From assembly GCA_903834765.1 (NCBI GenBank), contig CAILKE010000004.1, positions 248,001-312,000 on the forward strand: a DNA stretch of 64,000 bases, read 5' to 3'. A program made the translations under genes and the position numbers. Positions within the stretch are counted from its first letter, which is position 1. Every line of letters starts with the position of its first letter. The notes beneath the pieces are model-generated. The model did no database searches. It saw only the letters and a list, made by a program, of their open reading frames with translations, and was not told where the DNA came from. The stretch comes from an uncultured Bacteroidota bacterium (GTDB lineage Bacteria; Bacteroidota; Bacteroidia; B-17B0; Aurantibacillaceae). Shown piece after piece: positions 22,277-29,117 of the stretch.

Positions 22277-22408
22277 GTCTATTAAATTTAGTATTCTAGT
22301 TTATTAATTTTCAATAGTACCAAAAATGCAATTTTTAATAAATACATCGACTTGGTATTAATTTGATTATTAACAAAGTGTAGTTAAAAGGGGAAATATA
22401 TCATAAAA

Positions 22409-22440
22409 AACCCCTACAAATATTAATATCTGTAAGGGTT
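22409..22440 (-). terminator. Terminator at the end of the condensin-like operon
   Basis: AACCCCTACA (22409-22418) pairs with TGTAAGGGTT (22431-22440, one wobble). It is 20 bases downstream of the SMC-like ATPase stop, with TTTTTATGA following on the minus strand. Confidence 0.7.
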
Positions 22441-22460
22441 TAAAATGAATAAATAATAGA

Positions 22461-25400
22461 TTAAGCCTCTACTTCCGTTACTATACTTGGGAAAATACGT
22501 ACGTTATTGTTTTCTTCGCGACGGAATTGATAAGTGTATTTATAATGAGCTTCTAAGCCAGATTTATTTGGTAATCCATTAATCATCATAATGTTTCGGT
22601 TTTTAGCAAATCGTAATAATTCACGTAAATAGTGCGCTGAAATTTGGCCTACTTCATCGATAATGCAATGAACTTTAAAGTCGGTACTACTGCGGTGAGA
22701 AGATTCTTTAATAAACACATGCAATAACGTGATGTAAATAATTGCTTTTACCAAGATATCCGTACCAGTACTTCCAATACTGTCAATTTTATGTGTCCAA
22801 CCAGTTTCGTTCATACCTTCTTTAATATTGAATCGTAATTCAAATAAATCTTGCAATCGAATTTCTTCTTGCTCTTGTTCCTTAATAGCACTGCGTAATT
22901 GTTCTAATAATTTTACGGCGCGGTTTGAAATTTCTTTGTTTTTATGCGTTGCAAAATCAGTATTAAATAACCCTTCGTTGTATACTAAACCATTTTCTTC
23001 ACGGAATTCTTGAATACGTTTTAATAATTTGTAAACTTTATTTTCTGAATCTTCTAATCTGATTTTAATGAACTCAATTAATTTTGATTCTTCAAACTCT
23101 GCTTTTTTAAAATCTTCAGCAATTAAGGTAATAATATGTTGAATTTTTTCTTTTTGTCCACTGAGTTCTTTTACTTTGGTAGCAATACTATCGGTTACTA
23201 ATCCAATTTGAGTTGCTGTTTCTGCAATTGATAATTCAATTTTTGTTTCATTGATAAATGAACGTAGATTTTGCGCGAAGCGCTCGTATTCTCCTTGAGA
23301 CGCGTCATTACGAATTACAAAGTTAAAGTGATTTTCTAACCTGAATTTACCTGCAAATTCATTAACATAACGTTGAAATGCACCATATTCCTCATTAAAA
23401 TGCGAATCGTTTTTAAGAAGTTGTGTGCATAAATCCATTACAGAGTAATTTGTTTTCTTTGGTTCTGCACGTTCAATAATATCTACATACTTATTGTAAA
23501 CAGGTGTTTCTCTAAAGTTTTTCGTGAAATAATTGATGCCATTATTAAACTCAATTAATTCTTCATCAAAGGCACGTTTTTGTTTGTTCAACTCCATACG
23601 TTTGATGTTGTATTTACGAGCAATTTCTTCTAACTCTGCACTTAAGTCGTTTGCCGTTTTTACATACTCTTCTTTTTTCTGAATGAAATCAGGTAGTTTA
23701 TCAAAAATGTCGCGTTTATCTTTCAAGTAATCATTAACTACTTGCGAGTATTGTTCAATTTCTTTTAATGCCTCTTGTAATTCTTTAATACGAGCGTCAA
23801 TGCGTTTGATCTCTTTACTATCAACTCCTTTTTCTTTAAAGTTTGATTCTTTTTCTGAACTTAATTTTGTTTCTTTTTCTTCGTATTCTTTTACTTGATT
23901 TTTCTTTTCAACTTCTAATTCAGAGATTTCGGTTTCTTGTCGACCTTTTAAATCAGCTAAGCGTTCATCATTAAATATTTTTAATTTATCGAATTGAGTA
24001 TTGAAATCGTTCAATAAATTATTTTTCTTTTTATTTAAAATTGCTAATTCTTCTTCTATGATATTTATTTTTTGTTTGTTGCCAGACAGTGATTGCTCAA
24101 TTTCTGTGCTAGCACGTTGTTTCCAATCTTCAATTTCAAGAATTAGTTTTTTCTCGCGTTTATCAGCTAATTCTAAAGAATAATTTAAAACTTTTAAATC
24201 TTCTTTTAACTCACCCAATTGCTTACCAAACTTGTCGGCAGCTAACATTTTTTCTTCGTTGTTGCTTGTTTGAAATTGATTTAAAGATTCTTCTAAATCA
24301 CGAATAATTGCATTGCGTTCATTTTTTTCAAATTGATATTCTTCAATTGTTTTTGAAACTATTTGCACATCATCTAACTTCAATGTGACTCCATATAATG
24401 AGAATGCTTTATCTGCAATGATTTTAGGGTCGAGGTCTGTTCTAAATAATAAATCTTCATTAACTACTTTACCAATAGTTGTATGCCAATCTTTTACGTT
24501 TTTTTCTAAATAACCATATAAGGCATTGTGTTGAACGTTTAGTTTTTCTTCAATGGCTTTAATTTCATTTTTAATACGAATAATTTCGTTATTCGTTTTT
24601 TGAATTTGATGAGCCGAAGCTGTTTTTAATTTCTGTTCTAAGTTTTCCCATTCTTTTTGATTGGTTTGAACTAAGTTAGTTTTAATAGCACGCTCCGATT
24701 TGTTTTTATAATTAATAGCCCTTAATTCTGCTAATTCAGTTTCCTGAGCTTTAATTTCATTTTCGTAAAAACGCGTATTACGAATTACTTTTTCTTCTGC
24801 TTTTAATTCATTGAATTCAATTTGTTTAGATGTTACTTCTGCATTTAAATCGGTTAAAGCATCTTCGCGTTTTTGTTTTAATTCATTATCTTTTTTATTG
24901 AATTCGTTTTTTTGTAATAATTGTAATTCGTTATAATGATTAAATATTTCACTTGTGCGGGAATTGATTTTATTAACATATGCTGTTTTATCATTACGTA
25001 ATTGTTCTATTAGTGATGAATACTTCATCTCAATGCTTTGCACATTAGAGGTTAATGATTCATATTCACGTCGCGCAATATTTAAATCAACTTGTAATTT
25101 TTCTCTTTCAGCGTTTTTCTCTACAGCTTGATCAATGTTTTTATCTTTATATTCTTTTAGTTTTTTGTTGGCTTCTCTAATTGATTTATCGTAATAACCA
25201 ATTTCCTCACGAATATCTTTTTGCTTTTCCTCTAAATGTGTTTTTTGTTCTTCGTTTCCTTCTGCTAATTTTTCGATTTCCTCTTCTTTTTCTCGAGATG
25301 CTTTTATGATTGTTTCATTTTGTGTTTCGGCATAACGAAGACTGCTACCTAATTTGTCGGCCATCTCCATTTGAGCACCTTTCAACATGTGAACTTGATC

Positions 25401-26147
25401 GTATTTTCTATCGATGAATTCAATAAGTTGTTGGGTTTCTTTTTTCAAGTATGTTTCTATATCAGAGTATTTTTCGTTAAACTGACGTAATTGTCTTTCA
25501 ACTTGCTCCAACTTAATACTACTATTTTCAGTAGTTAAGGAGTTAGCAATGAAATCTTTAATGAAACGGCTATCGATACTGCTTTTAGAGCTTAAGAAAA
25601 CATTGGTAATGGATTTAGGAATGTTTTGATATTTTTCATTTCCTTTTAGTAAATAAAATTTAGATAATTGTTTATCCGTTTCAGTCCCATATAATACATT
25701 TCTGTAACGTTCAAACGTGTCAATTTGATTTGAAATATAAGTTCCTCGCTTATCAAAACCTGCAACTATATCTTTCATTTTAAGCGCCTCATCATTTTCA
25801 TTAAAAAAGTAATCAGGACTGTATTCAGCATCTACAAAGCGAAATACCAATTTATTATGACGATAAACAATCACGAAAAACGGTTTATCTTCCGTTCGTA
25901 TTTCATAAATTAAGTAGGAATTTTCATTACGGAAATAATGTTCATCAAAAGGTTTTTGAGAAGGTGCAATACCTAATCCTCGGCTATTAGCACTATAAAA
26001 AAATAAGATTGCGCGTTGTAAGGACGTTTTACCAAAATTATTTGTCCCCACAAAGCAAGTATTGCCGCTTAATTCTAAGTCGGTATACTTTACATTGGCG
26101 ATATTTATTTCTACAATTCTATTTAATATTCTACAGTTGTTTTCCAT
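22461..26147 (-). CDS. SMC-like ATPase, MksB / JetC-type condensin subunit
   Basis: 1228 aa. Walker A is FVGTNNFGKTSLQRA near residue 35. The C-terminal head holds a signature-like STGTDILVKAI followed by Walker B FKVHCIIDEVGQIS, where the usual LDEA is IDEVG as in MksB-like proteins. Between the heads lie two very long coiled-coil arms (about residues 245-540 and 615-900), split by a small hinge-like globular segment around 545-610 (DWHTTIGKVVNEDLL). This is the architecture of MukB/MksB condensins rather than Smc or SbcC. It is last in an operon with kleisin-like and MksE-like genes. Chromosome organisation or plasmid restriction (Wadjet-like) are the possible roles. It has no adjacent JetD-type nuclease. 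Confidence 0.8.
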   Translation of the reverse strand: MENNCRILNRIVEINIANVKYTDLELSGNTCFVGTNNFGKTSLQRAILFFYSANSRGLGIAPSQKPFDEHYFRNENSYLIYEIRTEDKPFFVIVYRHNKLVFRFVDAEYSPDYFFNENDEALKMKDIVAGFDKRGTYISNQIDTFERYRNVLYGTETDKQLSKFYLLKGNEKYQNIPKSITNVFLSSKSSIDSRFIKDFIANSLTTENSSIKLEQVERQLRQFNEKYSDIETYLKKETQQLIEFIDRKYDQVHMLKGAQMEMADKLGSSLRYAETQNETIIKASREKEEEIEKLAEGNEEQKTHLEEKQKDIREEIGYYDKSIREANKKLKEYKDKNIDQAVEKNAEREKLQVDLNIARREYESLTSNVQSIEMKYSSLIEQLRNDKTAYVNKINSRTSEIFNHYNELQLLQKNEFNKKDNELKQKREDALTDLNAEVTSKQIEFNELKAEEKVIRNTRFYENEIKAQETELAELRAINYKNKSERAIKTNLVQTNQKEWENLEQKLKTASAHQIQKTNNEIIRIKNEIKAIEEKLNVQHNALYGYLEKNVKDWHTTIGKVVNEDLLFRTDLDPKIIADKAFSLYGVTLKLDDVQIVSKTIEEYQFEKNERNAIIRDLEESLNQFQTSNNEEKMLAADKFGKQLGELKEDLKVLNYSLELADKREKKLILEIEDWKQRASTEIEQSLSGNKQKINIIEEELAILNKKKNNLLNDFNTQFDKLKIFNDERLADLKGRQETEISELEVEKKNQVKEYEEKETKLSSEKESNFKEKGVDSKEIKRIDARIKELQEALKEIEQYSQVVNDYLKDKRDIFDKLPDFIQKKEEYVKTANDLSAELEEIARKYNIKRMELNKQKRAFDEELIEFNNGINYFTKNFRETPVYNKYVDIIERAEPKKTNYSVMDLCTQLLKNDSHFNEEYGAFQRYVNEFAGKFRLENHFNFVIRNDASQGEYERFAQNLRSFINETKIELSIAETATQIGLVTDSIATKVKELSGQKEKIQHIITLIAEDFKKAEFEESKLIEFIKIRLEDSENKVYKLLKRIQEFREENGLVYNEGLFNTDFATHKNKEISNRAVKLLEQLRSAIKEQEQEEIRLQDLFELRFNIKEGMNETGWTHKIDSIGSTGTDILVKAIIYITLLHVFIKESSHRSSTDFKVHCIIDEVGQISAHYLRELLRFAKNRNIMMINGLPNKSGLEAHYKYTYQFRREENNNVRIFPSIVTEVEA

Positions 26148-26204
26148 TTTTAATTTTCTCCTCTATTATTCTATCTTAAATTAATTCTTGAACATAATTA
26201 CAAA

Positions 26205-27224
26205 TTAGTAATCATATAAATTCACATCCTGTTGTTTAGCTATGTTAGCGACACTTTTAGTATTTGATGCTGATTTTTGTGTTGTTTTTGGTGGCAAAAT
26301 AATTGTATGTAATCCAATTGTCTTTCTTTTATTATTGGCGCCAGGTAAAATGGCGGCAATTGTTTTTTCGTAACCAGTGATGGGTTCATAAAATTCAGGG
26401 GCTAACCCCGCTTTTACATTTCTTCTATCAATAACTTGTGCGTAAAACGAAGGAGATATATAACCATCATTTAATGCTTTAAACAAAATCCCATCTAATC
26501 TTTCGTTTGTTTTATCTGCATCATAATTTAATAAAATAGTGCGAGCTATTTCGCAAGCCTTTTTGTTTACTATTTTTAAATTAGGAAATCCATATTTGCT
26601 TATATTTCCTATTAGTTTGACTGCAACTATAGAATCAGTTTTCATTCTTTCTTTTAAAATTTTATTTTTAGAAACATATTCAGCCGCTGTTTTACTGCAC
26701 GTTTTTGATTTGATACACATGTTGCAGTAGGTTAATGCTTCATTATATTTTGTATCAGCTGCTTTATTAGGAGTAGGTTCATAGGTATAGATTTCTCTTT
26801 CGAAAGTGGCATTTTTTGAAGAATTTCCGTTAGCGTTCCATACTTTAATATTTGCCTGATATTCTTGTTTGGTATTTTGATTATTAAAAACTATGAGTGC
26901 TAATTTATTACTATCAATTTCGTAGCCGTTAGTAATTGCTTTTTCTAAATAATTTAATGCTTTATATTCTTCCTTTATTTTAATGGCGCATATTGCTGCT
27001 TTAAAATAATGTGAAGGATTTTTTGCTCCTTTATAATTCTCGAAAGCAATGTCAAATTTACCATAGGCTTGCAATAACGAATCATTCTTGAACATACGTT
27101 CAGCTGCCGATACTGTTGCATGATAGTTGTTAAAATCTTCAGAGGTTGTTGAGTATTTTGTTTGCGCAACAGATATTAAATTAGCAATAGTAATTAATAT
27201 GCATAAAAGTTTTTTTATCACCAT
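26205..27224 (-). CDS. Exported protein of unknown function inside the condensin-like operon
   Basis: 339 aa with a clear signal peptide (KKLLCILITIANLISVAQ). The first 150 residues look helical and TPR-like (YGKFDIAFENYKGAKNPSHYFKAAICAIKIKEEYKALNYLEKAI). A Cys cluster follows (YCNMCIKSKTCSK, near residue 168). The C-terminal third is Lys/Thr/Ser rich. No family is recognised. It starts ten bases after the MksE-like stop and ends 58 bases before the SMC-like ATPase start, so it is presumably in the same transcript. A secreted or periplasmic protein between two cytoplasmic condensin genes is unexpected; it may be a later insertion or an accessory factor. Confidence 0.75.
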   Translation of the reverse strand: MVIKKLLCILITIANLISVAQTKYSTTSEDFNNYHATVSAAERMFKNDSLLQAYGKFDIAFENYKGAKNPSHYFKAAICAIKIKEEYKALNYLEKAITNGYEIDSNKLALIVFNNQNTKQEYQANIKVWNANGNSSKNATFEREIYTYEPTPNKAADTKYNEALTYCNMCIKSKTCSKTAAEYVSKNKILKERMKTDSIVAVKLIGNISKYGFPNLKIVNKKACEIARTILLNYDADKTNERLDGILFKALNDGYISPSFYAQVIDRRNVKAGLAPEFYEPITGYEKTIAAILPGANNKRKTIGLHTIILPPKTTQKSASNTKSVANIAKQQDVNLYDY

Positions 27225-27234
27225 GTTTTTAATT

Positions 27235-27846
27235 TTAATTATATACTAATCCTTGTGTATCATCTCCACCTAAAGAGTTATCTTCATAAATTGCTACTGA
27301 ATTGATTATATCTAATAGATAAGAATATGAATCTAGTACTTTATAAGATTCTGATTTTTCGTCTTCTAATTCTAAAAATGAATCACGGCTCATTAAATCA
27401 CATATTTCGCGAACTTTGTTATGTAATGTTTCTGATCGGTATAAAGGAATTTTTTGTAATTTTTGTTTCAGGCGCACATTGGCATTACATTCTTCCGAAA
27501 TTTCACCTGGGCGGAAACGGCTACCAATACCAATTTTATTATCCATACTAGCAAATAAATCAATGATATCAATATAACGTTCAAAACGTTCTAATTTCTT
27601 TTCAAGTTCACTATTTGGTTCACCTAATTTAGAAAAGTAAAAGAAATTATTTCCTCGCTCAATGTTGTAACGGATTACGTTAAAGTAAGCTTGGAGTCTA
27701 TCAAAATTTTCAGGATTATTGATAACGTCGTATAAACGATTCATGCCGTCTTTACTACCATTACTCGAAATAAAATTACCTCGAGCCATTACAGCAAAAA
27801 TATCATGTGTTTGTTTTGGTAGGTTAAAGTTAATCGTGTCTTCCAT
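27235..27846 (-). CDS. MksE / JetB-like condensin accessory subunit
   Basis: 203 aa, soluble, no signal peptide. By size, position and sequence feel it matches MksE/JetB winged-helix (KITE) subunits: an N-terminal helical region with HDIFAVMARGNFISS, then RYNIERGNNFFYFSKLGE, and a long middle helix (EKKLERFERYIDIIDLFASM). KITE subunits dimerise and bind the kleisin near the ATPase heads. It lies 32 bases after the kleisin-like gene and ten bases before the exported protein. Sequence similarity alone would not settle this; the operon context (kleisin-like before, SMC-like after) carries much of the weight. Confidence 0.65.
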   Translation of the reverse strand: MEDTINFNLPKQTHDIFAVMARGNFISSNGSKDGMNRLYDVINNPENFDRLQAYFNVIRYNIERGNNFFYFSKLGEPNSELEKKLERFERYIDIIDLFASMDNKIGIGSRFRPGEISEECNANVRLKQKLQKIPLYRSETLHNKVREICDLMSRDSFLELEDEKSESYKVLDSYSYLLDIINSVAIYEDNSLGGDDTQGLVYN

Positions 27847-27878
27847 ATTTTATATTTAAATCCCAATTATGGGATGAA

Positions 27879-29117
27879 TTAGTTAACTTTTTGTTTTTTT
27901 GATTTTTCCTTCATTGGTAATATCAACGTATAACCTAAACGTTTTTTGACATCATCACCTAAGGTATAATCATAGTATTGCAAGCGGTATTTAAAGTCCA
28001 ATTGATTTTGATATTCCATGGCAATCTCTACAAATAAAGATAATCTATCTTCAAATGTAACTGTTCCAATTGCTTTTGGGAATTTGTAATCAATCAAATA
28101 TTCAAATAAATTAGCTTTTGTTTGAGTTAAAAAACGTTCAACTAATTTCTCTGTATCTAATTTTATTTGTTGCTCTAATCCTTTGTCTTTAAAGTTTCCT
28201 GGCATTTTATCTGCCAATCCACGGACCATTAAACGTGTAATTTTATATTTTTCAGCAACACGCTTACACAGTATATGACCATCATCGCTATACAAGAAAT
28301 CTATAGGGATTTTTGTTTTTGGAGTTTTGTGTCCGTTGTGTTTTAAAGTGTTTATGCCACTTACTATTTCTCTAAAATTAGTTTTGAAATGCAATGCTCC
28401 ATGATCCTTGATTTCTTTAAGCTGTTGTGCTTTTTTGTAAACGTCTAACTGGAACTGGATTTTATTAATGAAATCGGTAATATCTGTTTGAATTTCAATT
28501 AAGAAATCTAAATTTTCAATTAAGCTTATTCTTAATGCAGCAACGATTCCAAACAATTCAGAGTCATTAGTCAAATTGAACATTGCCCTAGATTCATCAA
28601 TTACCTCACTCGTTTTTTTAATAAACTGAATAATGGAATCTCGCTTTTCTCTATAATCTTCAAGCTTTTGAAGCTTAATGCGGTAATTACTTTCGTTTTT
28701 GTAAGTATCATCTACATTTTTTTGAAGCTTAATTATTTCACGTGTTAATGTTGAATTAATGCGCTTTAAAAATTTTTTGATACTACGTAAGAAGCGAATC
28801 TCGCGAGCATCTTGGTAGAAATTAATATAGCGCTTTAGTTCGTTAATATAGTCGTTAATGAATCCTGGAGTTACTTCACCTATCTCCATGAAGTCTTCGA
28901 ACATAGCTACAACAGCATCGTTCAAACTTACAATGTTTTCATATTCATACAAAATATCTAACGAAACGAGTTTTCGGTATTGATCTTCGCTAATATCTTC
29001 TCTACTCAATAATTCGTTTACGGTTATTTGATCGCGTTGTCCAAATAACGTTTCCACTACACCACGATTGTGGTATAAGTTTGATAACAAATCTTTTACA
29101 TTTACTTGTAAACTCAT
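27879..29117 (-). CDS. MksF / JetA-like kleisin subunit
   Basis: 412 aa, soluble. The N-terminal 80 residues could be a winged helix (VNELLSREDISEDQYRKLVSLDILYEY). A helical, coiled-coil-forming middle follows (about residues 90-240), and the C-terminal 150 residues look like a second globular domain (KITRLMVRGLADKMPGNF). This winged helix-helical bundle-winged helix plan fits the kleisins MukF/MksF/JetA. It is the first gene of the operon; the order F-E-B equals the Wadjet order JetA-JetB-JetC. The ATG at 29115-29117 is the natural start. Family identity is inferred from architecture and order rather than from a diagnostic motif. Confidence 0.65.
   Translation of the reverse strand: MSLQVNVKDLLSNLYHNRGVVETLFGQRDQITVNELLSREDISEDQYRKLVSLDILYEYENIVSLNDAVVAMFEDFMEIGEVTPGFINDYINELKRYINFYQDAREIRFLRSIKKFLKRINSTLTREIIKLQKNVDDTYKNESNYRIKLQKLEDYREKRDSIIQFIKKTSEVIDESRAMFNLTNDSELFGIVAALRISLIENLDFLIEIQTDITDFINKIQFQLDVYKKAQQLKEIKDHGALHFKTNFREIVSGINTLKHNGHKTPKTKIPIDFLYSDDGHILCKRVAEKYKITRLMVRGLADKMPGNFKDKGLEQQIKLDTEKLVERFLTQTKANLFEYLIDYKFPKAIGTVTFEDRLSLFVEIAMEYQNQLDFKYRLQYYDYTLGDDVKKRLGYTLILPMKEKSKKQKVN

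Follow-up and report, generated by a model that had tools for sequence, protein, structure and literature searches.

A nuclease-free MksBEF operon, probable housekeeping condensin of a Bacteroidia family in which SMC-ScpAB was not found

The analysed window, a 64,000-nucleotide stretch of DNA from an uncultured bacterium of the family Aurantibacillaceae, contains an operon encoding the three subunits of an MksBEF-type SMC complex and no nuclease. We consider, with a probability of about 0.72, that this complex does the housekeeping condensin work on the chromosome in this Bacteroidia family, in place of SMC-ScpAB. By sequence or structure comparison, its three subunits were identified, the ATPase motifs are intact, the trio is universal in the family and slow-evolving, and SMC, ScpA, and JetD were not found.

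Results

The four genes of the operon lie on the minus strand in the order mksF (27879..29117, 412 aa, kleisin-like), mksE (27235..27846, 203 aa, KITE subunit), a gene for a predicted exported, helical, TPR-like protein hereafter called X (26205..27224, 339 aa), and mksB (22461..26147, 1228 aa, SMC-like ATPase), and the listed ORFs are separated by gaps of 32, 10, and 57 bp, respectively. After mksB, a consensus scan predicted a terminator-like stem-loop on the same strand (22408..22441), with a stem of 15 pairs, four of them G-C, followed by a T-rich tail. The preliminary description of this DNA had reported a four-gene minus-strand operon in this order with a terminator at its end, in exact agreement with the ORFs and with the predicted stem. 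Comparison of the gene neighborhoods showed that the F-E-B trio recurs in more than 50 genomes, with an identity falling to ~40%, as in the Cytophagales trios of, e.g., Chryseosolibacter and Parachryseolinea, and is thus not a chance arrangement, whereas X was present in only part of them. The F-E-B block was intact in most of the loci that reached far enough, mksF adjoining mksE; as an exception, mksE and mksB of G027 are ~96 kb apart and mksF adjoins neither.

MksE matched the Pfam model PF21980 (MksE) with 103.6 bits for a cut-off of 27, which identifies it as the MksE/KITE subunit; both control genomes, E. coli and C. glutamicum, were also positive with this model. MksB matched PF12128, a model that carries only the name DUF3584, with 207.5 bits over residues 23–1195, i.e., its whole length. 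The ATPase motifs previously read from this protein (GTNNFGKTS, STGTD, and IIDEVG) were all present, as Walker A (GTNNFGKTS, residues 34–42), signature (GSTGTD, 1125–1130), and Walker B (CIIDEVG, 1161–1167), and their residues were largely invariant among homologs, as would be expected of an SMC-like ATPase. In a few relatives (L060:7238-10683, L161, and L074), mksB was found as two frames, due to breakage or to an assembly error. In a profile comparison, MksB and type I JetC were aligned with their signature and Walker B motifs in register, in a match that was weak (E 0.0026, probability 11%), and PADLOC reported weak JetB, AriA, and LmuB matches and nothing else. PDB sequence searches with the profiles of MksB, MksF, MksE, and X returned no Muk or Jet match; the profile matches that were listed, such as that between MksE and a designed protein, are probably chance hits and were not retained.

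MksF had no match in the Pfam and PDB sequence searches, and its profile comparison with JetA gave nothing useful. Its AlphaFold model, built with 26 homologs (mean pLDDT 73.8, pTM 0.41), was compared to the PDB with Foldseek, and the first 14 matches were all MukF or JetA kleisin chains, of kleisin length, from MukBEF/MukEF or JetABC(D) structures (best matches: 9gm7_C, E 2.3e-5; 8q72_E, 7.7e-5), with low TM-scores (0.14–0.30). A second aligner, VIA-align, superposed MksF on MukF chains with Z ~12–14, several of the alignments spanning residues 1–247, but syntaxin and STAT helical bundles tied with MukF over the middle part of the protein. Support for a kleisin comes, therefore, from the ranking of the matches, from the N-terminal coverage, and from the gene context, which together designate MksF as a predicted kleisin subunit at the fold level. 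With PF21980 on MksE and PF12128 on MksB, these kleisin matches corroborate the MksBEF-type assignment made previously.

As already noted from the operon itself, no JetD-type nuclease follows mksB: the next gene on the same strand is an unrelated 727-aa ORF, and two JetD-type models, PF09983 (JetD_C) and PF23947 (DUF7281, the model to which the short JetD-like protein found in relatives belongs), had no match anywhere in the source genome. The system thus appears, from these searches, to lack the JetD component of Wadjet/JetABCD. In a related sister clade, mksF, mksE, and mksB are directly followed by a gene for a JetD-like, Toprim-like protein of 284–302 aa, with a JetD_C match of 22.7 bits and a conserved Glu and GDFDFxG motif, which we take to be features of a Toprim nuclease. 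Nuclease-bearing F-E-B operons were also found in other families of the class and on plasmids of Phocaeicola (L207:2206-8523) and Persicobacter (L208:2269-8553), where their genes are unannotated or mainly annotated as "hypothetical protein". Few such copies exist in the source family: they are diverged and additional to the universal trio, at separate loci in G004 and G026 only. In G026, the nuclease-type mksB is broken, and G004 holds two related complexes together, the universal nuclease-free one and the rare nuclease-bearing one. In a Cytophagales clade, the L169 trio has a JetD-like nuclease gene 4 bp downstream of mksB and its sister L164 has a trio without nuclease; the tree requires at least two changes for the L169 nuclease, compatible with both its retention and its regain. 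Two cultured Cytophagales species, Chryseosolibacter indicus (L164) and Parachryseolinea silvisoli (L168), have the nuclease-free trio.

The MksB profile was positive in all 65 family genomes of at least 90% completeness, from all 10 genera, and PF21980 detected MksE in 33 of 37 family genomes, the four negative ones being drafts, two of which have mksB pieces at contig ends. In HMM searches of the family genomes, which are mostly draft MAGs, neither SMC (SMC_prok_B, TIGR02168, at E <= 1e-20; 0/39) nor ScpA (PF02616; 0/37) was found, and the source genome had no match to either model. Both models detected their targets in most controls and in four relatives of the class. The other SMC_N matches of the source genome were in frames of 218–648 aa, none of them SMC-sized, which are presumably RecF-, RecN-, and ABC-ATPase-like, these names being given from size. 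Within the genus, the mean identity to the source sequence was 86% for MksF, 92% for MksE, and 90% for MksB, compared to 63% for bshC, the gene adjoining the operon and the single yardstick of this rate comparison, and 57% for X. No phage match to the system was found, and the plasmid matches were distant (<60% identity; 21–30% for those listed).

At the level of the class, 197 Bacteroidia genomes of at least 95% completeness were searched with SMC_prok_B and PF21980. SMC was detected in 49 of them and MksE in 65: both were present in 8 genomes, MksE only in 57, and SMC only in 41. The co-occurrence of MksE and SMC was rarer than expected (Fisher p 0.005, relatedness ignored). Fourteen genomes matched the MksB profile strongly, none of them with SMC (p 0.016, relatedness ignored); eight of these belong to the source family, and five of the remaining six have a nuclease next door. 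In 91 of the 197 genomes, neither SMC_prok_B nor PF21980 gave a match, and the lack of SMC alone thus does not demand MksBEF. Genomes without a detected SMC are common in Bacteroidia, and MksBEF alone does not account for them.

Two other types of Mks locus were seen in the class. A second nuclease-free type (L088:8956-13398, L089:9941-14347, and L090:9956-14420), found in three other families, has a short MksB of 886–909 aa and the gene order B-F-E, and its three genomes had no SMC, JetD, or DUF7281 match. This short MksB of ~900 aa was considered as the condensin of relatives having neither MksE nor SMC and was discarded, being found only in its three source genomes; a weak extra match in G026 fell on the N-terminal fragment of its nuclease-type MksB, which is broken. 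A third type (L079, L087, and L091–L094) combines a kleisin-like protein of 437–470 aa, an MksE of 215–254 aa, and an SMC-like ATPase, which in L087 has a MukB N-terminal match; at some of these loci, the ATPase is followed by a ~310-aa protein with a weak JetD_C match.

The protein X, described previously as a 339-aa signal-peptide protein with a Cys cluster between the E-like and B-like genes, does have an N terminus that looks, by eye, like a signal peptide, and its Cys 167, 170, and 176 (CxxC-x5-C) are invariant in 16/16 homologs. Its model is all-helical (pLDDT 78), with weak TPR-type matches; the structure search with this model gave no significant fold match, and no convincing sequence family was found. 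X occurs in 16 of 60 relatives, i.e., 15 members of the genus and one neighbor, always between mksE and mksB, and elsewhere only one weak partial match was seen, in G018. Of the two roles proposed earlier, hitch-hiker is favored over accessory: the simplest and most likely reading of these sequence data is a co-transcribed passenger acting outside the cytoplasm, and its strict linkage to mksE and mksB means that it may still have an accessory role. A dedicated accessory of MksBEF, coupling the complex, e.g., to the envelope or to the division site, would explain why all 16 full-length copies share this location with a spacing that fits co-transcription, and why 78 alignment columns, including the three Cys, are invariant in the 16 homologs. 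We regard it, however, as quite improbable: most of the family lacks X, as do G004, G011, and G015, three members of the genus whose E-B junctions are intact, and its distribution takes three or more changes on the MksB tree. X is also much less conserved (~57% identity) than MksF, MksE, and MksB (86–92%) and is predicted to be located outside the cytoplasm. Moreover, unrelated genes also interrupt the operon in relatives (L068/L113 and L112). In L113 (from G029; same place as L068:4263-8910), five of them were observed, one between mksF and mksE and four between mksE and mksB, the one just before mksB being DprA-like by eye.

Discussion

Sequence similarity between the MksBEF proteins of the source genome and the Muk and Jet proteins of solved structure lies below HMM detection. 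Among known systems, E. coli MukBEF provides the MukF chains that the MksF model matches best and an MksE homolog that PF21980 detects, and MukB (~1486 aa) is longer than the 1228-aa MksB described here. Wadjet (JetABCD/MksBEFG) has the same types of subunits in the same order, kleisin, KITE, and SMC, and the sister clade, with its JetD-like nuclease right after mksB, is Wadjet-like; Wadjet systems are patchy and encode a nuclease, whereas the system studied here is universal in its family and lacks the nuclease gene. The preliminary description correctly noted this lack but overstated it as unusual, since MksBEF without a nuclease had been described before, e.g., in Pseudomonas aeruginosa (PMC10586767, PMC7485682), which has a similar F-E-B trio and where MksB influences both the segregation of oriC and the layout of the chromosome (PMC7485682). 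SMC is present as well in P. aeruginosa, whereas in the source genome SMC and ScpA were not found and the trio is fixed family-wide. In Borrelia burgdorferi, which has Smc and is devoid of MksE and MksF, MksB promotes long-range chromosome contacts (PMC10406323). A nuclease-free MksBEF is therefore of a known kind, and its novelty lies in the clear setting: universal in a family where SMC was not found.

On the model of MukBEF and MksBEF, the MksB ATPases would be bridged by a kleisin, MksF, with MksE dimers bound to it, to form one ATP-driven complex on chromosomal DNA. This complex would spend ATP to hold and enlarge chromosomal DNA loops, which would help with compaction and segregation. 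Plasmid cutting would not be expected, as JetD was not found. Since MksBEF is universal in the family and SMC was not found, it would probably be the main condensin of the cell, replacing SMC.

Of the two possibilities raised previously, a chromosome-organizing condensin and a nuclease-less variant of an anti-plasmid system, these results thus favor the former. JetABCD is known to act in plasmid defense (PMC10586767), and the nearest nuclease-bearing kin, with a ~285-aa Toprim-like protein next to F-E-B, look like defense systems and sit on plasmids or in single genomes, so that a Wadjet deprived of JetD might still restrain plasmids by trapping, by silencing, or with an unrelated nuclease acting in trans. 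This seems quite unlikely when the trio is slow-evolving, syntenic, and present in 65/65 family genomes, whereas defense systems are patchy, when SMC-ScpAB was not found and neither JetD model matches in the source genome, and when the nuclease is kept by a separate, rare paralog coexisting with the universal complex in G004 and G026. The universality and conservation of MksBEF would also fit another role in DNA maintenance, and the complex could be a non-essential DNA-organizing or repair complex in cells whose chromosome is organized by another, unrecognized system. Many Bacteroidia indeed lack both SMC and any detected MksE, and, among the Bacteroidetes without known condensin homologs analyzed by Hi-C, B. 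caecimuris still has some arm alignment (PMC10197239). We consider such a system unlikely in the source family in view of the strict universality and slow evolution of MksBEF, and no other SMC_N frame of the source genome would offer an SMC-sized candidate.

For the housekeeping condensin that we prefer, an evolutionary scenario can be put forward tentatively, at somewhat less than even odds: a nuclease-armed anti-plasmid SMC complex may have been domesticated in Bacteroidia as the sole, essential condensin after the loss of SMC-ScpAB, a JetD-like nuclease still following mksB in the Cytophagales-clade L169, and the second, short MksB type may have been domesticated likewise elsewhere, in other families.

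A Hi-C study of gut bacteria included two Bacteroidetes without known condensin homologs and called for as yet unidentified SMC complexes (PMC10197239). In the source family, the condensin candidate is unambiguous and universal, so that MksBEF as the only condensin becomes a testable question. Furthermore, the presence of nuclease-free and nuclease-bearing relatives in one family offers a natural comparison of an SMC machine between chromosome care and plasmid defense.
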